Source: Thermus aquaticus
Lineage (GTDB): Bacteria; Deinococcota; Deinococci; Deinococcales; Thermaceae
Direction of reading: 5' to 3'
Assembly: GCF_001280255.1 (NCBI RefSeq)
Contig: NZ_LHCI01000106.1
Location: forward strand, 26,547 to 77,932
DNA length: 51,386 nucleotides
A program made the position numbers and the translations under genes. Numbering within the stretch: the stretch's first letter is position 1; every line of letters begins with the position of its first letter. Shown piece after piece: positions 6,676-51,386 of this stretch. Below the pieces are notes generated by a model. The model did no database searches. It was given only the letters and a program-made list of their open reading frames with translations, and had not been told where the DNA came from.

Positions 6676-6852
6676 GTGAGGGCGCTCCTCCGCCTCTTCC
6701 AAAGGACCCGAAGGCCAGGCCCCTGCCCCGTTTGCGGGCTTCCCCGGCCCCTGGCGGAGGAGGTGCGCCGCCACCGGCGCTTCTGCCCCCACGTGGCCTT
6801 CCGGGCCTGCCCCTTTGACCCCAGGAAGGGCCTATACCGCTTGCGGCGATGA
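6676..6852 (+). CDS. Small Cys/His-rich protein, translationally coupled to YkgJ-like gene
   Basis: A 58-residue basic protein starting at GTG 6676. It contains PGPCPVCGLPRPL followed by HRRFCPH and RACPFDP, four to five cysteines and two histidines that could form one zinc-ribbon-like site. Its TGA (6850-6852) overlaps the ATG of the next gene (ATGA), which strongly suggests that it is translated and functionally linked to that Cys-cluster protein. I do not recognise a family. There is no Shine-Dalgarno; TACCCT 7 nt upstream suggests a leaderless start. Confidence 0.6.
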   Translation: MRALLRLFQRTRRPGPCPVCGLPRPLAEEVRRHRRFCPHVAFRACPFDPRKGLYRLRR

Positions 6853-7454
6853 CCCCAGAAGAGGCCTGGCGCGCCCTGGAAGAGGACCTGGCGGACTACC
6901 TGGAGAGGAAGGGCGTCGTCCCCTCCTGCCGGGCGGGGTGCTTCGCCTGTTGCTTCGGCCTCGTCACCCTCTCCCGCCTCGAGGGCCTAGCCCTCCTCCC
7001 CCACCTCACCCCCCTTCAGAAGGCGCGCCTCCTTGAGGAAGGCCCGAGGCGCCTGGCCCTCCTCAAGGAGGGTAAGGACGACCCCCACTTCCCAAGCCGC
7101 TTCTTCCAAAGCCGCACCCCCTGCCCCCTTCTGGAAGGGGGGCTTTGCGGGGTCTACCCCCAGAGGCCCCTGGCCTGCCGGGGCCTCCTCACAGAGGGGG
7201 ACCCCAGGCTTTGCGCCCCCGAGGCGACCCCGCCCAAGGGGCACTTCCTCCCCGTGCCCTGGCGCATGGCCCGCCTGCGCATGGAGGCCCTCTGGGAGGA
7301 GGAAAGGAGGCGCTTCGGCCACGCCCTCATCGGGGAACTGGCAAGCCTCCTCTACCTCCTCCTAAAGGGCCTTCCCCAGGACCGGGAAGGGGTGGAGGCC
7401 CTTCTTCAGGAGCTTGGGGTGCTTGGGGGAAGGTGGGGGTACCAGGTGCTCTAA
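6849..7454 (+). CDS. YkgJ-type Cys-cluster (Zn/Fe-chelating) protein
   Basis: 201-residue protein of the YkgJ/UPF0153 family. The N-terminal cluster CRAGCFACC (CxxxCxxCC, residues 27-35) and two further cysteines in CPLLEGGLCGVYPQRPLACRGL match the family metal-binding pattern. The biochemical role of the family is not established; metal chelation is inferred from the cysteines. It overlaps the preceding small Cys protein by ATGA. Its stop TAA (7452-7454) is part of the left end (CTAAGT) of repeat element A1. Confidence 0.85.
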   Translation: MTPEEAWRALEEDLADYLERKGVVPSCRAGCFACCFGLVTLSRLEGLALLPHLTPLQKARLLEEGPRRLALLKEGKDDPHFPSRFFQSRTPCPLLEGGLCGVYPQRPLACRGLLTEGDPRLCAPEATPPKGHFLPVPWRMARLRMEALWEEERRRFGHALIGELASLLYLLLKGLPQDREGVEALLQELGVLGGRWGYQVL

Positions 7455-7556
7455 GTACCCCACCGCGGCAAAAGCCGCGGTGGGGGCCCCAGAAAAGCCC
7501 TTCCACAGCTCCGACTTGGGCACCCCATGTTGCGAAACCAAAGTGCGGGCACTTAG
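7451..7556. repeat. Element A copy 1, full length (106 bp, terminal inverted repeats)
   Basis: Starts CTAAGTACCC and ends GGGCACTTAG, an imperfect terminal inverted repeat. A perfect GC-rich hairpin (ACCGCGGC-aaaa-GCCGCGGT) lies at 7461-7480, then GGGGGCCCCAGAAAAGCCC and a tail ending in GTTGCGAAACC. The left end contains the TAA stop of the YkgJ-like gene and the right end the TAA stop (complement, 7553-7555) of the convergent DUF454 gene. A second copy of the same length lies at 51107-51212. Confidence 0.85.
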
Positions 7557-7915
7557 GCCTCTTGGGTGGGGACCCTTTTCCAGATGAAGTAGAGGGCGTA
7601 GGCCACCAGGCCCAGAAGGAGGGCCCAGGCCCCAGGATGGGACAGGCGAAGGAGGCTGAAGCCGGCCCCTAGCAGGATGAGGAGCGTGGCCCAGGCCTTG
7701 GTTCCCCGGGACATGCCCCGGCCCTCCCGATAGTCCCGGATGAGGGGGCCCACCTTGGGTAGGCTCAGGAGCCAGGCCTCGAGGCGGGGATTGGAGCGGG
7801 AGAAGAAGTAGGCCGCCAGGAGGAAAAAGGGCGTGGAGGGCAGAACCGGGAGAAGGCTTCCCAAAAAGCCTAGCCCGGTGAAGAAGAAGCCCAAGACTAA
7901 GGCCAACCCGCGCAT
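7553..7915 (-). CDS. YbaN-like DUF454 membrane protein
   Basis: 120-residue inner-membrane protein with three to four hydrophobic segments and the DUF454/YbaN hallmark GFLGSLLPVLPSTPFFLLAA followed by YFFSRSNPRLEAWL. The function is unknown. It starts at ATG 7915; a TAGACT box on the minus strand (7923-7928) ends 7 nt upstream, consistent with a leaderless mRNA. Its stop codon is inside the right terminal repeat of element A1. Confidence 0.85.
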   Translation of the reverse strand: MRGLALVLGFFFTGLGFLGSLLPVLPSTPFFLLAAYFFSRSNPRLEAWLLSLPKVGPLIRDYREGRGMSRGTKAWATLLILLGAGFSLLRLSHPGAWALLLGLVAYALYFIWKRVPTQEA

Positions 7916-13694: not shown

Positions 13695-13772
13695 TTAAGT
13701 ACCCCACCGCGGCAAAAGCCGCGGTGGGGGCCCCAGAAAAGCCCTTCCATAGTCCCGACTTGGGCACCCCAT
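13695..13772. repeat. Element A copy 2 (right end missing)
   Basis: TTAAGTACCCC, the same hairpin as copy 1 (ACCGCGGC-aaaa-GCCGCGGT), then GGGGGCCCCAGAAAAGCCCTTCC and GACTTGGGCACCCCAT. It diverges from the full-length copies after 13772, so about 34 bp of the right end are lost. Confidence 0.8.
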
Positions 13773-13826
13773 AAATCTTGACACGACCGGGCGGAGGGTC
13801 CTCGAGGCGAAGGCTCTCATAAAGCG

Positions 13827-17240: not shown

Positions 17241-18347
17241 ATGCCGAACCCCGCTAGCCTCTACGTCCACGTCCCCTTCTGCCCCACCCTCTGCCCCTAC
17301 TGCGACTTCCACGTGGTGCGCCGGGGTGGGGTCTGGGTGGAGGCCTACTTGAAGCGCCTGCAGGAAGAAGCGAAAGCCCTCCACCAGGCCCACCCGGGGC
17401 CCCTGGCCACCCTTTACCTGGGCGGGGGCACGCCCAGCTACCTGAGGGACCGGGAGCTCGTAGCTCTCTTCCAAAGCCTCCCCTGGCGGCTTCAAGAAGG
17501 GGCCGAGGTGACCCTCGAGGCCAACCCGGGAACCCTCTCCCCCTCTAGGCTCGCCCTCCTCAAGGACCTGGGGGTGAACCGCCTCTCCCTGGGGGTCCAG
17601 AGCTTCCAAGACGAGGTCCTCCGCTTCCTGGGCCGGGCCCACGGGAGAAAGGGAGCCTTGAAGGCAGTGGAGATGGCCCTGGAGGCCGGTTTTCGGGTGT
17701 CTATAGACCTGATCCTGGGCCTCCCCATGCAGGACGTGGAAAAGGACCTGAAGGAGGCGGCCCGCCTGGGCGTGGGCCACGTCTCCGCCTACACCCTCCA
17801 GGTGGAAAAGGGGACCCCCTTCGCCCTTTTGGGCCTTCAGGAAGACCGCGAGCGGGAAGCCTGGGCCATGGAGCGGGCGGAGGAGGTCCTGGGCGAGGCG
17901 GGGCTTCTGCGCTACGAGGTCTCCAACTTCGCCAGAGAGGGGGAGGAGGCCCGGCACAACCTGGTCTACTGGCGGGCGGGGTTCTGGCTGGCCTTAGGGC
18001 CCGCCGCCACCGGGCAGTACCCGGGGGAAGGCCCCGCCTACGCCTTCCGGCGCACGGGCCCTCCCCTCCCCCGCTGGCTTACAGGGGAGGCCCCAAGGGA
18101 GGAGGCCATCACCCCCCTGGAGCACGCCAAAGAGGCCCTGATGCTGGGGCTGAGGCTTAAGGAGGGGGTGGACGTGGGGGAGCTGGAAGGGCGCACGGGC
18201 CTTTCCCTCTGGCCCGCCCTGGAGGCCAGAGCCGAGGCCCTGGCCCAGGAAGGGCTCCTCCTCCTTTCGGGCAAGCGCCTGAGGCCCACGGGGAAGGGCC
18301 TCGCCCTCCTCAACGCCGTGGTGCTTTCCCTTTGGGAAGCCCTTTAA
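17241..18347 (+). CDS. hemW: Radical SAM heme chaperone HemW
   Basis: 368 residues. The radical SAM motif is CPTLCPYC (C14, C18, C21), then the GGGTPS SAM-binding motif and LSLGVQSFQDEVLRFLGR, as in HemW/HemN. It lacks the longer N-terminal extension of coproporphyrinogen dehydrogenase HemN, so HemW (heme insertion chaperone) is the better call. I start at ATG 17241, 23 nt after the glycerate kinase; the open frame continues upstream, but that part is out-of-frame sequence of the kinase gene. Its TAA stop (18345-18347) begins element A3. Confidence 0.9.
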   Translation: MPNPASLYVHVPFCPTLCPYCDFHVVRRGGVWVEAYLKRLQEEAKALHQAHPGPLATLYLGGGTPSYLRDRELVALFQSLPWRLQEGAEVTLEANPGTLSPSRLALLKDLGVNRLSLGVQSFQDEVLRFLGRAHGRKGALKAVEMALEAGFRVSIDLILGLPMQDVEKDLKEAARLGVGHVSAYTLQVEKGTPFALLGLQEDREREAWAMERAEEVLGEAGLLRYEVSNFAREGEEARHNLVYWRAGFWLALGPAATGQYPGEGPAYAFRRTGPPLPRWLTGEAPREEAITPLEHAKEALMLGLRLKEGVDVGELEGRTGLSLWPALEARAEALAQEGLLLLSGKRLRPTGKGLALLNAVVLSLWEAL

Positions 18348-18386
18348 GTACCCCACCACGGCCTTCGCCGCGGTGGGGGCCCCTAA
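18344..18386. repeat. Element A copy 3 (hairpin half only)
   Basis: TTAAGTACCCC followed by ACCACGGC-cttc-GCCGCGGT and GGGGGCCCCTAAGGG. The tail is missing. The TAA is the hemW stop codon. One mismatch (A-C) is present in the stem. Confidence 0.7.
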
Positions 18387-18409
18387 GGGACGGAAAAATG
18401 GGCGCCCGC

Positions 18410-18799
18410 TTAGGCTAGGGCCAGGGCCTCCCGAGCCCGGTCCGCCAGGGCGAAGAAGCGCTCCTTGGTGAGGGGAATCTTCCCCGTGACCAAGCCCTTG
18501 CCGGGCTCGTAGTGGGCGTGGAGGTGGATGTGGGCCCGGGGCAGGCGGAGGCCGATGCGCTTAAGCTTGGCGTGCCGGGGGGAGACATCGGCCAGGAGGA
18601 AGGGCTCCCCTAGGGCATCGGAGAGGGAGGCGGTCATGATGGTGGTGGGGAGGTCGTAGGGCCGCTCCATGCGGTAGATGAAGTCGGGGAAGTCGGCCTC
18701 CTTCTCAAAGCGGACCCCCTTTTCCCTGGCGTACTCCCGCATCCAGCCCAAAAGCTCCACCCAGGCCTCGTAGAGTTCCCGCTCGTGGGACGCGCTCAT
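18410..18799 (-). CDS. Conserved hypothetical protein (129 aa)
   Basis: I do not recognise the family. Soluble, no cysteines or membrane segments. It contains WMREYAREKGVRFEKEADFP and a His-rich patch RAHIHLHAHYEPGKG, which could bind metal. The start at ATG 18799 is chosen because TATACT on the minus strand (18806-18811) ends 6 nt upstream, the leaderless pattern; an ATG 15 nt further upstream lies before this box. It is a single-gene unit between element A3 and the tRNA pair. Confidence 0.65.
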   Translation of the reverse strand: MSASHERELYEAWVELLGWMREYAREKGVRFEKEADFPDFIYRMERPYDLPTTIMTASLSDALGEPFLLADVSPRHAKLKRIGLRLPRAHIHLHAHYEPGKGLVTGKIPLTKERFFALADRAREALALA

Positions 18800-21440: not shown

Positions 21441-21524
21441 CATACCCTTGGTTCCTGCTCCCTTTGGCCCACCATACCTGGTAACTTCCCCAGGAACCTT
21501 TTGCCGGGGCCAGCATGGGGTGGT
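21441..21524. repeat. Element B copy 1
   Basis: CATACCCTTGGTTCCTGC, then CCCACCATACCTGGTAACTT, CCCCAGGAACCTTTTGCCGG and CAGCATGGGGTGG. The ends CCCACCAT and ATGGGGTGG form an imperfect inverted repeat. The right end runs into TCA, the complement of the thrC stop (21526-21528). Confidence 0.75.
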
Positions 21525-21525
21525 G

Positions 21526-22581
21526 TCACAGAAGGCCCGAGGCCCGGGCCACCGCCTCGAGGGTGGCGGGCACCGGAGGGGGAAGCTGGGCCACCTTCTC
21601 GGCGGTGGCGGGGTCCTTGAGGCCGTGGCCGGTGAGGGTGAGGACCACCCTCGTTCCCTCCTCCAGGCGGCCCTCCCGAAGAAGCCGCCACACCCCCGCC
21701 AGGCTGGCGGCGCTGGCGGGCTCCACGAAGACCCCCTCCTCCCGGGCCAGATAGCGGTAGGCCTCCAGAATCTCCTCGTCGGTGACGGCCTCAATGAGCC
21801 CCCCCGACTCCTCCTTGGCCCGGATGGCCCCCTCCCAGCTAGCCGGGTTGCCGATGCGGATAGCGGTGGCGATGGTCTCGGGCTTCTCCACGGGGCGCCC
21901 CAGGACGAGGGGTGCGGCCCCCGCCGCCTGGAAGCCCAGCATCCTGGGGAGCCTCGAGGCCCGCCCGGCGGCGAAATAGGCCTTGTAGCCCATCCAGTGG
22001 GCGGTGATGTTGCCGGCGTTGCCCACGGGAAGGGCGTGGTAGTGGGGCGCGTCCCCCAGCTCGTCCACCACCTCAAAGGCCAGGGTCTTCTGGCCCTCGA
22101 GGCGGTGGGGGTTCACCGAGTTCACCAGGGCCACGGGGAAGCGCTCCGTGAGCTCCCGCGTCAGGCGCAAAGCGTCGTCAAAGTTCCCCTCCACCTGGAC
22201 GATCCTGGCCCCGTGCATGAGGCTCTGGGCCACCTTGCCCAGGGCCACGTACCCGGCGGGGAGGATCACGATGGCCGTCATGCCCGCCCGGGCGGCGTAG
22301 GCGGCGGCGGAGGCGGCGGTGTTCCCCGTGCTGGCGCAGGCCACGGCCTTGGCCCCGCCCTCCAGCGCCTTGGACACCGCCAGGGTCATCCCCCGGTCCT
22401 TGAAGCTCCCCGTGGGGTTCAGGCCCTCGTACTTGGCGTAGATCTGAACCCCGCGCCTTTTGGCCTCCTCGGGGCCCTTCAGGGGGATGAGGGGGGTGGA
22501 GCCCTCCAGAAGGGAGACCACCGGGGTGTTCAGGGAGACCGGCAGAAAGGCGCGGTAGCGCTCAATCAGGGGCAGGCGCAT
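21526..22581 (-). CDS. thrC: Threonine synthase
   Basis: Converts O-phosphohomoserine to threonine, PLP-dependent, cytoplasmic. 351 residues, the short threonine synthase form seen in Thermus. The PLP lysine is K61 in [12 protein letters not shown], followed by [20 protein letters not shown] (phosphate-binding loop region) and a C-terminal TLTGHGLKD. It sits downstream of hom on the same strand with a broken Uma2 gene in between. The stop codon is the first base triplet after element B1. Confidence 0.95.
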
Positions 22582-23892: not shown

Positions 23893-23898
23893 ATTATA
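23893..23898 (-). promoter_or_regulatory. -10 box of hom, formed at the edge of element A4
   Basis: Minus strand TATAAT (23898-23893), 7 nt before the hom ATG. The TA comes from the end of element A4 (TAAGTACCCC on the plus strand begins at 23897), and TAAT from the flank. Confidence 0.6.
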
Positions 23899-23934
23899 AG
23901 TACCCCGCCGTGGCCCTTGCCACAGGGGAGCCCC
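23897..23934. repeat. Element A copy 4 (degenerate, hairpin half)
   Basis: TAAGTACCCC then GCCGTGGC-cct-TGCCACAGGGG and AGCCCC. The stem is partly decayed and the tail absent. It sits between the divergent hom and queG genes. Confidence 0.65.
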
Positions 23935-23962
23935 AAGGGGGCCCAGGCCTAAACTGGGGGAG

Positions 23963-27949: not shown

Positions 27950-28578
27950 CTTCCCAAGTATAGGGCGGGGCGGTTCCCGGCCCGCCTCCCCGCGGCCTCG
28001 GCCTCGAGGAAGGGCGGAGGGGCCTCCGGGGCCAGGTGGACCGCCCCCGCCTCCGCCTCCGGGGGCCCCAGGAGGGCAAGGAGGTCCTCCCGGGAGAGGA
28101 AGCGGGCCCGGGTCCAGGGGAGGACCCCTTTCTCCCCAAGCCGCCGGTAGAGGGCGGCCCACGGGGAAAGGGCCTCGAGGATGCCCACAAGAAGGGCCCC
28201 TCCTGGTCTCAGGACCCGCCGGGCCTCGGAAAGGGTCTTCTCCACGTCCTCCACGAACTCCAGCGTGGTGAAGAGGAGGACCAGGTCAAAGCTCCCTTCG
28301 CCAAAGGGCAGATCCTCCCCCCGGCCCGCCACCCAGACCGCCTCCGGGGCCCGGGCCTGGCCCAGGCGGCGCATGGCCTCCGAGGGCTCGAGGCCCACCT
28401 TCCTCGGGTAGGGGAGGCGCCTGAGCCAGTACCCCGTGCCCGCCCCCACCTCCAGGAGGCTTTCTCCCGGGGGGAGAAGGCGAAGAAGGGCCCTTTCCTC
28501 CTCGGCGATGACGAAGGCCCCCAAGGGGGTCTCGTACCAGGCCTCGTAGGCCTCGGCGATGGGGGCGAAGGGGTCCAC
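27940..28578 (-). CDS. Class I SAM-dependent methyltransferase
   Basis: 212-residue Methyltransf_11-type enzyme: AEAYEAWYETPLGAFVIAEE at the N-terminus, SLLEVGAGTGYWLRRLP (SAM motif I), VGLEPSEAMRRLG, DLPFGEGSFDLVLLFTTLEF, EARRVLRPGGALLVGIL. The start GTG 28578 lies 5 nt after the glucosidase stop, and its end overlaps the next methyltransferase gene, so the three are one transcript. It has only the catalytic domain, and its substrate is unknown. Confidence 0.85.
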   Translation of the reverse strand: MDPFAPIAEAYEAWYETPLGAFVIAEEERALLRLLPPGESLLEVGAGTGYWLRRLPYPRKVGLEPSEAMRRLGQARAPEAVWVAGRGEDLPFGEGSFDLVLLFTTLEFVEDVEKTLSEARRVLRPGGALLVGILEALSPWAALYRRLGEKGVLPWTRARFLSREDLLALLGPPEAEAGAVHLAPEAPPPFLEAEAAGRRAGNRPALYLGRWR

Positions 28579-30232: not shown

Positions 30233-30314
30233 TTATACCCTTTTTCCGGCCCACCATGCCTGGTAACTTCCCCAAAAACCTTTTGCCGGGGCGCAAGCCA
30301 GCACGGGGTGGTAT
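30233..30314. repeat. Element B copy 2
   Basis: TATACCC, then GGCCCACCATGCCTGGTAAC, CCCCAAAAACCTTTTGCCGG and GCACGGGGTGGTATTA. The final TTA (30314-30316) is the complement of the stop codon of the adjacent DUF1653 gene. Confidence 0.75.
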
Positions 30315-30538
30315 TACCCTTCTCCGACCTCTTCCACCAACTCAAACCGGGGAACCTCCTGGCCCTCCACCCGCACCTTCTCCAGGAAGTGGCCCAAAGG
30401 GCGCACCCAGTACCCCCTTTCCCCGTAGAGAGCTTGGTAGACCACCATGGCCTCCTCCGTTTCCGAGTGGCGGGCCAGGAAGAGCACCCGGTAAAGCCCT
30501 CCCTTGTAGTGGCGGTAGATCCCCGGCCTAACCGACAC
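30314..30538 (-). CDS. DUF1653 protein
   Basis: 74-residue DUF1653 protein: PGIYRHYKGGLYRVLFLARH, ETEEAMVVYQALYG, YWVRPLGHFLEKV, all typical. The function is unknown. It starts inside the 3' end of ttuA (11-nt overlap), so it is co-transcribed with ttuB-ttuA. The TAA stop is at the end of element B2. Confidence 0.88.
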   Translation of the reverse strand: MSVRPGIYRHYKGGLYRVLFLARHSETEEAMVVYQALYGERGYWVRPLGHFLEKVRVEGQEVPRFELVEEVGEG

Positions 30539-39942: not shown

Positions 39943-40974
39943 ATGAGAGCGGTGGTGATGGAGGCGAGAGGCGGCCCAGAGGTCTTGAAGCCCACGGAGA
40001 TGCCCACCCCGGAGCCGGGCCCCAAGGAGGTGCGCATCCGGGTCCGGGCGGCGGCCCTCAACCACCTGGACATCTGGGTGCGCAAGGGGGTGGCGAGCCC
40101 CAGGCTTCCCCTGCCCCACATCCTGGGGGCGGACGCCAGCGGGGTGGTGGAGGCCGTGGGGCCCGGGGTCACCGCCTTCGCCCCCGGCGACGAGGTGGTG
40201 GTGAACCCGGGGCTTTCCTGCGGGCACTGCGAGCGGTGCCTGGCGGGCGAGGACAACCTCTGCCCGCGGTACGAGATCCTGGGTGAGCACCGCCACGGGG
40301 CTTATGCCGAGTACTTGGTGGTGCCTGAGGTGAACCTCCTCAAAAAACCGCAAAACCTCTCCTTTGAGGAGGCGGCCGCCATCCCCCTCACCTTCCTCAC
40401 CGCCTGGCAGATGGTGGTGGATAAGCTCCAGGTGCGCCCTGGGGACGACGTGCTGGTCATGGCGGCGGGAAGCGGGGTTAGCGTGGCCGCCATCCAGATC
40501 GCCAAGCTTTTCGGCGGGCGGGTCATCGCCACCGCTGGCTCGGAGGAGAAGCTAAGGAAGGCCCTGGAGCTTGGGGCCGACGAAGCGGTCAACTACACCC
40601 ACCCCGACTGGTTCAAGGAGGTGCGCCGCCTCACCGGGGGCAAGGGGGCCGACAAAGTGGTGGACCACACCGGGGCCCTCTACTTTGAGGGGGTCATCAA
40701 GGCCACGGCGAGCGGGGGCAGGATTGCCATCGCCGGGGCCTCCTCGGGGTACGAGGGGACCCTGCCCTTCGCCCACGTCTTCTTCCGCCAGCTCGCCATC
40801 CTGGGCTCCACCATGGCCTCCAAAAGCCGCCTCTTCCCCATCCTGCGCATGGTGGAGGCGGGGAAGCTGAAGCCGGTGGTGGGGCAAGTGCTTCCCCTCG
40901 AGGCCGCCAGCAAGGGCCACCGCCTCCTGGAAGAAAGGCGGGTCTTCGGCAAGGTGGTCCTGAGGGTGGACTAA
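39943..40974 (+). CDS. Zinc-containing MDR-family alcohol dehydrogenase/quinone oxidoreductase
   Basis: 343-residue medium-chain dehydrogenase. Structural-zinc cysteines are visible in CGHCERCLAGEDNLC; the NAD(P)-binding loop is VMAAGSGVSVAAIQIA. The usual catalytic-zinc Cys near residue 40 is replaced (NHLDIWVRKG), as in the quinone-reductase-like branch, so the reaction is uncertain. It starts at ATG 39943 with a strong Shine-Dalgarno. Its TAA stop (40972-40974) is in the end of element A5. Confidence 0.85.
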   Translation: MRAVVMEARGGPEVLKPTEMPTPEPGPKEVRIRVRAAALNHLDIWVRKGVASPRLPLPHILGADASGVVEAVGPGVTAFAPGDEVVVNPGLSCGHCERCLAGEDNLCPRYEILGEHRHGAYAEYLVVPEVNLLKKPQNLSFEEAAAIPLTFLTAWQMVVDKLQVRPGDDVLVMAAGSGVSVAAIQIAKLFGGRVIATAGSEEKLRKALELGADEAVNYTHPDWFKEVRRLTGGKGADKVVDHTGALYFEGVIKATASGGRIAIAGASSGYEGTLPFAHVFFRQLAILGSTMASKSRLFPILRMVEAGKLKPVVGQVLPLEAASKGHRLLEERRVFGKVVLRVD

Positions 40975-41010
40975 GTACCCCACCGCGGCTTTCGCCGCGG
41001 TGGGGGCCCC
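40971..41010. repeat. Element A copy 5 (hairpin half)
   Basis: CTAAGTACCCC with hairpin ACCGCGGC-tttc-GCCGCGGT and GGGGGCCCC. Its TAA is the stop of the dehydrogenase gene. It is fused directly to a reversed element B. Confidence 0.8.
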
Positions 41011-41075
41011 GGCGAAAGGTTCCTGGGGAAGTTACCAGGCATGGTGGGGCGAGGGAAAGGGGAAACAAGGGTATA
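41008..41075. repeat. Element B copy 3, reversed
   Basis: Minus-strand reading gives CATGCCTGGTAACTTCCCC preceded by CCCCACC and followed by AGGAACCTTTCGCCGGGG. It lies between two A copies, in the opposite orientation to copies B1, B2 and B4. Confidence 0.75.
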
Positions 41076-41114
41076 AGGGCCCCACCGCGGCCCTTGCCAC
41101 GGCGGGGGCCCCAG
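41074..41114. repeat. Element A copy 6 (hairpin half)
   Basis: TAAGGGCCCC, ACCGCGGC-cctt-GCCACGGC, then GGGGGCCCCAGAAT. Closes the A-B-A composite 52 nt before the reductase gene. Confidence 0.7.
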
Positions 41115-41166
41115 AATGAGGTGCCCAAAAGGTCCGAGGGCTTAGAATGCCGGAAGAGGTGCGGCC

Positions 41167-46738: not shown

Positions 46739-49597
46739 ATGGACCGCATCATCATCCGGGGTGCTAGGGAGCACAACCTGAAGAACATCAGCCTCGAGCT
46801 CCCCAGGGGCAAGTTCATCGTCATCACCGGGGTCTCGGGCTCAGGGAAGAGCACCCTGGCCTTTGACACCATCTACGCCGAGGGCCAGAGGCGGTACGTG
46901 GAAAGCCTCTCCAGCTACGCCCGCCAGTTCCTGGGGGTGATGGACAAACCCGACGTGGAAAGCATTGAGGGCCTCTCCCCCGCCATCTCCATTGACCAGA
47001 AGACCACCAGCCACAACCCCCGCTCCACCGTGGGCACGGTGACGGAGATCCACGACTACCTGCGCCTCCTCTTCGCCCGGGTGGGCACCGCCTACTGCCC
47101 CCAGTGCGGCCGTCCCATAGAAAAGCAGTCCGCCAGCGAGATCACCGACCGCCTCCTCCAGAAGCCCCCAGGCACCCGGGCCATCCTCATGGCCCCCCTG
47201 GTGCGGGGAAGGAAGGGCGAGTACCGCAAGCTCTTCGCCCAGCTCATGAAGGAGGGGTACGCCCGGGTGCGGGTGGACGGGGTCATCTACCTCCTGGAGG
47301 AGGCCCAGAACCTGAACCTGGAAAAGTACGAGAAGCACGACATTGACCTGGTCATAGACCGGGTGGTCCTCAAGGAGGAGGAAAGGCCCCGCATCGCCGA
47401 GGCCGTGGAGCTAGCCCTCCTCCGGGGCGAGGGCCTCATGCGGGTCCTCTACCCCGATTTGGGAGAGGAGGAGCTCTTCTCGGAAAAGTTCGCCTGCCCC
47501 GAGCACGGCAGCGTCCTGGAGGAGCTGGAGCCCAGGATCTTCTCCTTCAACGCCCCCTACGGGGCCTGCCCCGCCTGCTCCGGCCTCGGGTACAAGCAGG
47601 AGTTTGACCCGGCCCTGGTGGTGAACCCCGAGCTCTCCCTGGCCGAAGGGGCCATCCTCCCCTGGTCCCGGGGGCGGGACACGGGCAGGAGCTACCTCTG
47701 GGACCGGCTCAGGGCCCTCTCCGAGCACCTGGGCTTTGACCTCAAAACCCCCTTCAAGGACCTGCCGGAGGAGGCGCAGAAGGCCGTCCTCTACGGACTC
47801 CCCGAGCCCTTTGAGGTGGTCTTCCGCCGTGGGGGCAAGGAGACCTTCCGGGTGGAGGTCCACTACGAGGGGGTCATCCCCTGGCTGGAGAAGCGCTACC
47901 AGGAGGCCGACTCCGAGGGGGTGCGGGAGGTCCTCGAGGGCTTCATGGCCCTGAAGCCCTGCCCGGTCTGCGGCGGGACCCGCTACAAGAAGGAGGTCCT
48001 CTCGGTGAAGGTGGCGGGCAGGAACATCGCCGAGGTCTCCGCCTTGCCCGTGCGGGAGGCTCTGGGCTTTTTCCAGGGCCTCGAGGCAAAACTCCCCCCC
48101 TTCCAGGCCCAGATCGCCAGGCCCATCCTGCGGGAGATCGTGGAGCGCCTGGGGTTTTTGGTGGGGGTGGGCCTGGACTACCTGACCCTGGACCGGGCGG
48201 CCAACACCCTCTCCGGCGGCGAGGCCCAGCGCATCCGCCTGGCCACCCAGGTGGGCTCTGGCCTCACCGGGGTCCTCTACGTCCTGGACGAGCCCAGCAT
48301 CGGCCTCCACCCCCGGGACAACCAGCGCCTCATCGCCACCCTCAAGCGCCTCCAGGCCCTGGGCAACACCCTGATCGTGGTGGAGCACGACGAGGAGACC
48401 ATGCGGGCCGCCGACTGGATCGTGGACATGGGCCCGGGGGCGGGGATCCACGGGGGGGAGGTGGTGGCGGAAGGCCCTCTGGAGGCCATCCTGCAGAACC
48501 CCCGAAGCCTCACCGGGGCCTACCTGAGGGGGGAGAAGAAGATCCCCGTGCCCAAAGAGCGCCGCAAGGGCAACGGCAAGTGGCTGGTGCTGAAGGGGGC
48601 CAGGGAGCACAACCTGAAAAACGTGACCCTGCGCATCCCCCTGGGCCGCTTCGTGGCCGTGACCGGCCCCTCGGGCTCGGGGAAGAGCACCCTCATCCAC
48701 GACATCCTCTATGCCGCCTTGGCCCAGAAGCTCATGCGGGCCAAGACCACCCCCGGGGCCTACGAGGCTTTGGAAGGGGTGGAGCACCTGGACAAGGTTA
48801 TAGAGATTGACCAGTCCCCCATCGGCCGCACCCCCCGCTCCAACCCCGCCACCTACACCGGCATCTTTGACGAGATCCGCGACCTCTTCGCCAAGACCCC
48901 CGAGGCCAGGAAGCGGGGCTACGGCCCGGGGCGCTTCTCCTTCAACGTCAAGGGGGGGCGGTGCGAGGCCTGCGGCGGGGACGGCACGGTCAAGATTGAG
49001 ATGCTCTTCCTGCCCGACCTCTACGTGCCCTGCGAGGTCTGCAAGGGCAAGCGCTACAACAAGGAGACCCTCGAGGTGAAGCTAAGGGGCAAGAGCATCG
49101 CCGACGTCCTGGACATGACCGTGGAAGAGGCCCTGGACTTCTTCCAGAACGTCCCCACCATCGCCCGCAAGCTCCAGCTCATGGTGGACGTGGGCCTGGG
49201 GTACATGCGCCTGGGCCAGCCCTCCCCCACCCTCTCCGGAGGGGAGGCCCAGCGCATCAAGCTGGCCACGGAGCTGGGCCGCAAGTCCACGGGCCGCACC
49301 CTCTACATCCTGGACGAGCCCACCACCGGCCTCCACTTTGACGACGTGGCCAAGCTCCTCTCGGTCCTCCACCGCCTGGTGGACGGGGGCAACACCGTGG
49401 TGGTCATTGAGCACAACCTGGACGTGGTGAAGACCGCCGACTGGGTCATTGACCTGGGGCCGGAGGGCGGGGACCGGGGCGGGGAGATCGTGGCCGAGGG
49501 CACCCCGGAGGAGGTGGCCCTCACGGGAAGCCCCACCGGGGTCTACCTGGCCCGGATTCCGGAGATCCGGGAAAGGCTCAAGGTGGCCGCCGACTGA
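46739..49597 (+). CDS. uvrA: Excinuclease ABC subunit A
   Basis: 952-residue damage-recognition ATPase of nucleotide excision repair, full length. Two ABC ATPase modules with Walker [10 protein letters not shown] (31-39) and GPSGSGKST (about 640), signatures [15 protein letters not shown] and [15 protein letters not shown], Walker [11 protein letters not shown] and [10 protein letters not shown]. Zinc-binding Cys pairs: CPQCG, CPACSG, CPVCGG, and CEACGGDG with CEVCKG. It starts at ATG 46739. The TGA stop (49595-49597) lies in the end of element A7. Confidence 0.97.
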
Positions 49598-49643
49598 GTA
49601 CCCCACTGCGGCTTTCGCCGCGGCGGGGGCCCCAGAAAAGCCC
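49594..49643. repeat. Element A copy 7 (hairpin and part of tail)
   Basis: CTGAGTACCCC, ACTGCGGC-tttc-GCCGCGGC, GGGGGCCCCAGAAAAGCCCT. The TGA is the uvrA stop. It continues directly into element B4. Confidence 0.75.
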
Positions 49644-49733
49644 TCATACCCTTGTTTCCTGCTTCCCTTGGCCCACCATGCCGTAACTTCCCCAGGAACC
49701 TTTTGCCGGGGCCCCCAGCATGGGGTGGCATTA
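49644..49733. repeat. Element B copy 4
   Basis: CATACCCTTGTTTCCTGC, CCCACCATGCCGTAACTTCC, AGGAACCTTTTGCCGGGG, CAGCATGGGGTGGCATTA. The last TTA (49731-49733) is the complement of the TetR stop codon. Confidence 0.8.
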
Positions 49734-50324
49734 GCGGCTGAGGATCCCCAGAAGGGCCAGGTCCAGGGTCTTCTGTAGCTCCTCCTTCAGGTCCCGCTCC
49801 GGGGTGTAGGCCGCCCAGCGGAGGGCGGTGAGGAAGTAGAGGTCGGCCAGGGTCCGGCCCATGCGCTCCAGGGAGAGGTCCTTCCTCACCAGATCCTTCT
49901 CCCTGAGGGACCTCAGCACCTGGGCGATGAGGTCCCCCAGGGGCAGGGCCTCAAAGGCCGCCTTGGCCCGGATGGGGTCCGGGTTCAGAAGCTCGTAGAG
50001 GAGGGGGAGGACCAGGTCCTTCTCCGCCTCGGTGTAGCGGGCCACCTCCTGGAAGATGAAGCGGAGGATGGCCAGGGGATCTTCGCCCCGGGCCAGGCGC
50101 CTTTTCACCTCCTCCCTGAGGCCGGCGAGGAGGAGGGCGCCGTACTCCAGAAGCACCGCCTCCTTGTAGGGAAAGTAGTTGAAGAAGGTGCCCCGGGAGA
50201 CGTGGGCCGCCTTGGCGATGTCGCTGGCCGTGGTCTCCTGAAAGCCCCGCTGGCGGAATAGGGCCATGGCCGCCTGGAAGATGCGCTCCCGGCGGCGCTT
50301 TTTTTGATACTCCCTCACGGACAT
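49731..50324 (-). CDS. TetR-family transcriptional regulator
   Basis: 197-residue TetR regulator. The N-terminal helix-turn-helix is TASDIAKAAHVSRGTFFNYF after RERIFQAAMALFRQRGFQET; the C-terminal ligand domain is not specific enough to name a ligand. It starts at ATG 50324, 6 nt after TACACT on the minus strand (50336-50331). GGAGGTAGTGTACTCC (50325-50340), an imperfect palindrome over the -10, is a candidate autoregulatory operator. The stop is supplied by element B4. Confidence 0.9.
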   Translation of the reverse strand: MSVREYQKKRRRERIFQAAMALFRQRGFQETTASDIAKAAHVSRGTFFNYFPYKEAVLLEYGALLLAGLREEVKRRLARGEDPLAILRFIFQEVARYTEAEKDLVLPLLYELLNPDPIRAKAAFEALPLGDLIAQVLRSLREKDLVRKDLSLERMGRTLADLYFLTALRWAAYTPERDLKEELQKTLDLALLGILSR

Positions 50325-50340
50325 GGAGGTAGTGTACTCC
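50325..50340. promoter_or_regulatory. TetR -10 box and candidate operator
   Basis: GGAGGTAGTGTACTCC covers the minus-strand -10 TACACT and is a near-palindrome (arms GGAGGTA and TACTCC). Confidence 0.35.
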
Positions 50341-50349
50341 AGTCCAAAG

Positions 50350-50856
50350 TCAAAGCTCAACCGCTTTCCCGACCCAGTCCGAAAGGGCGGAAAGGAGGGC
50401 AAGTCCCCCCTTTGTGGCGTATACCCGGCCTTCCCGCAGGAAGGGCCTGGCCTCCACCCGGTAGCCCATCTCCCGCAGGCGCTCCGCCACCTCCTCCCCT
50501 GCCGCCACCCGGGGAGGAAGCCTCCCCGCCTCGGCCAGGAAGAGGTGGGCGTTGAAGCCCAGGAAGAGGACCTCGAGGCCCTCCCAGACCTCCTCCAGGT
50601 AGGCCAGCCAGGTGGGGTCTTTGGCGGGGCGCTCGGGCCTTCTGGCCCCCGGGATCAGGAGGGCTTTGGGGGGCGGGGCGGCGGGGAAAGCGTAGGTGGG
50701 GGTCCAGACCGAGCCCGCCAGGGCGGGGGTCCCTTTGCGCCCCTTGGCCACGGTACAAGCGGGAAGCTCAAGCCGCCTGGCCCACTCCAGGGCCAAAGCC
50801 GCCTCCAGCTCGGAGAACTCGGGAAGGAGGAGGACGGAGAGCACCCTGGGAGCCAT
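50350..50856 (-). CDS. DJ-1/PfpI-like protein
   Basis: 168 residues with the DJ-1/PfpI pattern: VLSVLLLPEFSELEAALALE, a middle segment ALLIPGARRPERP, and VYATKGGLALLSALSDWVGK at the C-terminus. The nucleophile elbow, normally a Cys (AxCxG), reads LFLGFNAHLF, so the catalytic Cys appears to be missing and enzyme activity is doubtful. ATG 50856 shares its A with the TAA of the broken upstream gene (TAATG), indicating past translational coupling. The TetR gene follows on the same strand after 25 nt. Confidence 0.7.
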   Translation of the reverse strand: MAPRVLSVLLLPEFSELEAALALEWARRLELPACTVAKGRKGTPALAGSVWTPTYAFPAAPPPKALLIPGARRPERPAKDPTWLAYLEEVWEGLEVLFLGFNAHLFLAEAGRLPPRVAAGEEVAERLREMGYRVEARPFLREGRVYATKGGLALLSALSDWVGKAVEL

Positions 50857-51106
50857 TATGGCAGAAGCCGGAAGAGGATCTCCGCCGCCTCCCCACCCCC
50901 GCTGCCCCGCTCTCCCAGGGCCAGGAGGATCTGGTTGAGGATCCCCGCTCCAGCAGGCGCCGGCGCAGGGCCTCCATCCCCGAGGCGCTTTGGGCCAGGG
51001 CGGGGAAGTCCTCCAGAGGGGCCCGCAGGAGGCCCGCCTGGGGGGCTTTGCGCAGGAAGGCCGCCGCCACCCCCTGGGGCGTGGCCCCGTAGACCAGGAG
51101 GTCGTA
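50856..51106 (-). pseudogene. Broken gene: start lost at element A8 and one-base frameshift
   Basis: Read on the minus strand from 51106, the frame begins YDLLVYGATPQGVAAAFLRK, a Rossmann-like start as in FAD_oxidored proteins, but it has no start codon; an in-frame TAG from element A8 is directly upstream. Near 50950 the frame shifts: the sequence CGGGGATCC would read through as LERGILNQILLALGE if one more G were present. The second part ends in EAAEILFRLLP and TAA, overlapping the DJ-1-like ATG. At about 85 residues it is also too short for an FAD_oxidored enzyme; the family is uncertain. Confidence 0.6.
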
Positions 51107-51212
51107 CTAAGTACCCCGCCGTGGCTCTTGCCACGGCGGGGGCCCCAGAAAAGCCCTTCCAAAGACCAGACTTGGGCATCCCATGTTGCGAAACTAAAGC
51201 GCGGGCACTTAG
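51107..51212. repeat. Element A copy 8, full length (106 bp)
   Basis: CTAAGTACCCC, hairpin GCCGTGGC-tctt-GCCACGGC, GGGGGCCCCAGAAAAGCCC, a tail with CCCATGTTGCGAAACTAAAG and the end GGGCACTTAG. Same length and ends as copy 1. Relative to copy 1 the stem has a paired change (C-G to T-A). The IS begins directly after its right end. Confidence 0.85.
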
Positions 51213-51386
51213 AGGCTGTCGTAAAAGGGTGGTATCCTTGAAGGGTGCCTCTTAGACGATGTTACCCCAGCGACCTAACCGACGAGGAGTGGGCCCTCCT
51301 GGAGCCCCTCATTCCCGCCCCCAAGCCCGGCGGCCGGCCCGCCAAGGTGTCCAGAAGAGAGATCATGAACGCCATCCTTTACGTCC
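51213..51386 (+). mobile_element. Left end of an IS5-type insertion sequence (cut by window)
   Basis: AGGCTGTCGTAAAAGG at the boundary looks like the left terminal repeat, 30 nt before the transposase start. The element runs past the window. It abuts element A8; TTAG at the junction would suit the YTAR target preference of many IS5-family elements. Confidence 0.7.
51245..51386 (+). CDS. IS5-type transposase, N-terminal part
   Basis: From GTG 51245: RRCYPSDLTDEEWALLEPLI, then GGRPAKVSRREIMNAILYV, the typical N-terminal DUF4096 domain of IS5-family (IS427/IS1031-like) transposases. 47 codons are visible; the DDE catalytic domain lies beyond the window. Confidence 0.88.
   Translation, partial: MPLRRCYPSDLTDEEWALLEPLIPAPKPGGRPAKVSRREIMNAILYV

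Follow-up and report, generated by a model that had tools for sequence, protein, structure and literature searches.

Within the window – the whole 51,386-nucleotide stretch of Thermus aquaticus DNA analysed here – two convergent genes end inside a shared repeat at positions 7451–7556. The plus-strand gene (6849–7454), which encodes a CxxCxxCC-domain protein, has its TAA stop codon (7452–7454) in the left end of the repeat, and the minus-strand DUF454 gene (7553–7915) has its own TAA (7555–7553) in the right end. This full-length copy reads, on the plus strand and with its flanks, C-TA-AGTACCCC...GGGCACT-TA-G; the element proper spans 7454–7553, bordered by a TA on either side (7452–7453 and 7554–7555) that is known to be a duplication from the empty sites of other copies. 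The left TA provides the first two bases of the plus-strand stop codon and the right TA, read on the minus strand, those of the other. Near the left end lies a hairpin (7458–7485, plus strand) with a perfect 12-bp stem, CCCCACCGCGGC-AAAA-GCCGCGGTGGGG; in an alignment of 33 copies, 97% of the cells in these 12 pairs are paired, with compensating changes at four pairs, and the element ends pair too. In RNA or DNA form, such pairing may have a role in transposition, in replication or in an RNA.

A second full-length copy lies on the plus strand at 51107–51212. Both are 106 bp long with CTAAGT and ACTTAG ends, and at 86% identity they belong to one family, as an earlier note on this DNA had proposed. 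A long open reading frame that crosses the second copy (50323–51255) was without a Pfam match and was not counted as a gene. The right end of this copy abuts GAGGCTGTCGTAAAAG, the end of an IS4/5-type transposon with a DUF4096-like start (51213–51386). Repeatedly, this sequence comes directly after the right-end TAG of both MITE and IS630 copies (also at loci L028, L037, L082, L083 and L253), and to judge from these junctions another IS, of IS4/5 type, seems to use MITE and IS630 ends as a target.

The note had further listed six shorter copies, at 13695, 18344, 23897, 40971, 41074 and 49594, that kept the left end and lost the tail. The left part does recur at all six, all on the plus strand, yet loss of the tail is not universal. 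The copy at 13695–13774 is truncated at about 78 bp, being 96% identical up to there, and 23896–23945 is a decayed remnant of the left end and hairpin. Two others are bounded at both ends: a 70-bp internal-deletion copy at 18344–18413 (...GCCCGCTTAG), between a convergent HemN-type radical-SAM gene (plus strand, stop 18345–18347) and an Nqo15 gene (minus strand, stop 18412–18410), and a diverged copy of about 73 bp at 41073–41145, which reads TA-AGGGCCCC...GAGGGCT-TA and has the bounds TA-AGGGCCC...GGGCT-TA. The remaining two are chimeras with a second short repeat family. In 40971–41072, which supplies the TAA stop of a plus-strand gene of zinc alcohol dehydrogenase type (39943–40974), the left 40 bp of the MITE are joined near a shared GGGGGCCCC to the second repeat in reverse; in 49594–49734 the joint lies further along, after about 50 bp, and the chimera sits between a convergent gene with a 952-aa product (plus strand, stop TGA 49595–49597) and a TetR gene (minus strand, stop 49733–49731).

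The second family, ATACCCTTGTTTCC...CCTGGTAACTTCCCCAGGAACCTTTTGCCGGGGC...GGGGTGGTAT, occurs in the window at 21441–21532, 30236–30320, 41005–41072 (reverse) and 49644–49730, and has at least 40 matches in the source genome. It is unrelated to the MITE, with ends ATACC...GGTAT and TNA flanks that create TAA or TGA there, so that it seems to yield stop codons likewise; in the related genome G018 it lies at the stop codon of the orthologue of gene 6849–7454. A further junction recurs in genome G000, where three MITE copies (L038, L040 and L041) break at base 83 and all run on into a single other repeat, TGTATCTTGCCCTCTGAGGGAGGTCCTACCGCCTATG.

Eight copies in 51 kb had been read as a local density. 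The copies are there, but they form no cluster: searching the genome from which the window comes turned up at least 40, dispersed across a 2.07-Mb contig, with E-values (4e-50 to 1e-29 for those 40 matches) far beyond chance. In 36 full copies taken with their flanks the pattern is N-TA-AGTACCCC...GGGCACT-TA-N, except for a few in which one TA carries a point change. Beyond the TA the neighbouring base varies (C, T or A on the left; G, A or T on the right), which places the border of the element inside the CTAAGT and ACTTAG ends originally quoted. What remains is a gene-free element of about 102 bp, AGTRCCC...GGGYACT, with one TA on either side; its length of 100–106 bp leaves no room for a gene, and it is without a transposase gene.

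Among 27 Thermus species, six have about 44–53 matches, six show none at the threshold used and the remainder fall in between. These counts, in which antisense hairpin hits are included and only part of the candidates were scored, serve as rough ranks only. A wider search across the bacterial family returned, outside Thermus, only weak matches in one genome, so that its other genera have almost none, and among about 85,000 genomes the exact core was found in Thermus records only (T. arciformis, T. composti and Thermus sp. JCM 17653). The many dispersed copies occupy differing sites and replicons, including Thermus plasmids (T. aquaticus pTA78 among them) and two Thermus phages, one of them phiMa. 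Sub-families differ among the sampled species, although G005 and G026 have one in common. Pairwise identity averages 94% in G026 (best pair 100%), 88% in G000 and 84% in G018; judged from such divergence, the copies are youngest in G026 and older in the other two. The copy in Thermus phage phiLo (L200, 97999–98086) falls within an annotated hypothetical gene, beside an IS605 OrfB gene. One in the T. thermophilus HB5018 plasmid pHB5018c (L164) apparently interrupts a decayed integrase-core (transposase) gene, whose counterparts on plasmids of T. oshimai and T. aquaticus are shorter by about 98 bp and seem to be uninterrupted.

The duplication of the target became visible when filled and empty sites were compared. 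The two flanks of ten copies were joined, keeping one TA, and run against the 27 Thermus genomes; many species match straight across the joined flanks, with C-TA-G where the filled site has C-TA-element-TA-G. Thus ...CGCCGC-TA-element-TA-GTCGGCG corresponds to ...CGCCGCTAGGGTTCGGCG, and ...TACATC-TA-element-TA-GGGGG to ...TACGTTTAGGAGG; empty sites are clear for loci L049, L026, L022, L032 and L051. Two copies in the window have empty counterparts in the nearest relative, G018: that at 18344, where a CTAG is found (GAAGCCCTCTAGGTG), and that at 49594 (GACTAGCGG; GCGGACTAGCGGG). In phage phiMa, a copy at 28096–28200 lies between two convergent genes with their stops in its two ends, whereas its relative Cumys has an empty site at that position (GCCTAGCCGATTCGG), CCTAGCC standing against CCTA-element-TAGCC. 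Site 7451 has no exact empty counterpart in the other species, since its two genes do not lie side by side in them. Clean empty sites in Thermus and in the phage pair show that the element moves and that it duplicates TA. The earlier note, which saw no target-site duplication, was mistaken on this point, because the TA forms part of the ends it quoted; its view of a mobile, non-autonomous element is borne out by the empty sites, the species-specific sub-families and a copy number ranging from none to dozens. The fixed position in all strains that it had named as grounds for abandoning mobility is not what the genus, or the two phages, display.

A likely source of that mobility is found in the genus itself. 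DDE_3 transposases are present in 17 of the 27 Thermus genomes, and one Thermus IS630 group, of about 1056 bp, is TA-flanked and has an HTH part (HTH_32/HTH_33) and a DDE_3 part in two frames. Its ends are AGTGCCAATCC and AGTACCCTCC/AGTGCCCTCC; the ends of the IS630 partner are also seen as TAAGTGCCAATCC / TAAGTACCCTCC, with TA on either side. Ends of the form AGTRCC(C) occur on HTH-plus-DDE_3 elements in G026, G025, G002, G017 and G005, so the IS with CTAAGTRCCC termini for which the note had suggested looking does exist, as IS630 elements with TA-AGTRCC ends. The likeness reaches well beyond the common tip at one end: for the IS end of G005, TAAGTGCCCGCGCATAGACTTTGCAACA, similarity to the right end of the MITE, TAAGTGCCCGCACTTTGGTTTCGCAACA, has a shuffle p of about 0.001, the same subterminal likeness with the sub-family shared by G005 and G026 has a shuffle p below 0.001, and the other end of the G026 IS is likewise similar to the MITE right end. 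For the MITE left end, the match to IS630 elements is confined to the outermost 7–9 bases. Genome G026 has four near-identical complete IS630 copies (>97%) along with the most alike MITE copies, and an IS630 copy of that genome occupies the TA on the right side of a MITE (L081). The Thermus IS630 copies at L081, L097, L082 and L206 share with the MITE the outer AGTRCC, the TA duplication and the right-end subterminal similarity; they differ in being about 1056 bp long with a transposase, and the left end and hairpin of the MITE are not derived from them.

The T. aquaticus source genome has no DDE_3 transposase, and holds only a decayed IS630 relic (C106:238457-239353) whose end starts TAAGTGCCC. 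With no intact DDE_3 there, the driver must be extinct in this genome, carried on mobile DNA or a visitor; an intact partner transposase is usual as long as a MITE family is active, though not strictly part of the definition, and its lack is common in old families. We read the repeat, with a probability of roughly 0.9 for the explanation as a whole – TA insertion, mobilisation in trans and regeneration of stop codons included – as a MITE (a small non-autonomous transposon) of the IS630 (Tc1/mariner) type, which has moved to dozens of Thermus genome sites, probably carried by an IS630-type transposase. A Thermus transposase of this type would act in trans, mobilising the MITE by a cut-and-paste mechanism; refilling of the donor site from another chromosome copy would then raise the copy number.

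The position of the copies relative to genes follows a pattern of its own. Both ends start with A, and insertion in the TA of a stop codon accordingly yields TAA, a TAG becoming TAA on both sides; insertion in a CTAG common to two convergent genes gives each gene a TAA. On translation, one frame on each strand runs through the element to its terminal TAA without meeting any other stop. The stop codon is in this way rebuilt and the neighbouring genes are left unchanged. For 56 copies from three species, the reconstructed pre-insertion TA was classified by a codon score trained on the window, with genes called from open reading frames and that score, not from annotation. By this measure 27 insertions fell in one stop codon, eight in two overlapping convergent stops with a common CTAG, 13 in intergenic sequence and eight inside open reading frames, compared with 70, six, 57 and 668, respectively, of 801 TAs in the window.

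These counts could be taken to mean that the transposase or the ends evolved to seek stop codons beyond any plain sequence preference: stops were hit in 35 of 56 insertions against 76 of 801 window TAs, and double stops in 8 of 56 against 6 of 801. The insertions also prefer the context YTAR, best CTAG (51 of 56, against 157 of 801), and among intergenic sites alone YTAR accounts for 11 of 13 insertions compared with 14 of 57 window TAs, which means that stop codons alone do not produce the preference. Once the NTAN context is matched and intragenic sites are excluded, the 35 stops observed stand against 37.9 expected, and a slight excess is left for double stops alone (8 against 4.0, p = 0.04). 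The unmatched excess, which had suggested dedicated targeting, is thereby accounted for, and we hold such targeting to be improbable: a YTAR preference together with loss of intragenic insertions suffices for the excess. Insertions in stop codons would be nearly neutral and would persist, those within genes being lost. It is a speculative and rather unlikely extension that the A-starting ends and the CTAG targeting were co-selected to settle silently in stops, the hairpin forming the shared 3' end of the convergent transcripts; if true, the element would settle above all in the four bases common to convergent genes, with neither protein changed.

We see an even smaller chance that the copies are a conserved structure of gene ends – a bidirectional terminator or a 3'-end stabiliser – that does not move. 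The strong hairpin with its compensated changes (folding z of about -4 to -5) and the location of the copies, mostly at 3' ends and several between convergent genes, would suit such a role; yet the orthologous gene pairs of many Thermus species are without the element, and the existence of empty sites refutes regulation as its origin. Copies are, moreover, more alike within species than between them, the element also occurs in a phage, no T-run follows the stem and neither a terminator scan nor Rfam gave a match at 7451–7556, nothing of either kind being called at MITE copies. The chance that the repeat is of REP/RAYT type, and that a single-strand transposase like that of IS200/IS605 moves it, is close to nil: the repeat is palindromic, short, high-copy and extragenic, but REP-type insertion makes no 2-bp target duplication, whereas TA is duplicated at the empty-site comparisons here and the two related ends match a DDE transposon.

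As an IS630-type MITE, the element is a new Thermus case of an already known class, with silent insertion as an added feature; in the partial literature covered, no published description of a Thermus MITE or interspersed repeat was found. The Correia elements of Neisseria and Nezha of cyanobacteria are also IS630-type MITEs with TA duplications, and their ends differ from those of the Thermus MITE. The closest known element in size and habit, on the excerpted text of PMC3049150, is RUP of Streptococcus pneumoniae, a 107-bp repeat linked to IS630-Spn1. The two are alike in length, in their IS630-like terminal repeats, in high copy number and in an excess between convergent genes, attributed for RUP to tolerance; RUP differs in being AT-rich and of other sequence, and the excerpts make no mention of regeneration of stop codons by its ends, a feature of the Thermus MITE. 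Among autonomous elements, ISTth6 is a Thermus IS630 listed with 2-bp repeats (PMC6352166). For the IS630 of Shigella a preference for TA within CTAG has been reported (Tenzen and Ohtsubo 1991, cited by PMC2170065), and the Thermus MITE shares it; the Shigella element and ISY100 likewise duplicate TA, yet both are autonomous, live in other hosts and are given no link to stop codons in the excerpts of PMC2170065.

For Thermus, a major thermophile model, the family provides species-specific insertion sites with clean empty counterparts, and ties this set of sites to an IS630 family open to assay. Annotators should expect such an element to be shared between converging Thermus genes. More broadly, the combination of a target preference that mostly hits stop codons and an end that rebuilds the stop offers a simple route to harmlessness in a compact, GC-rich genome.
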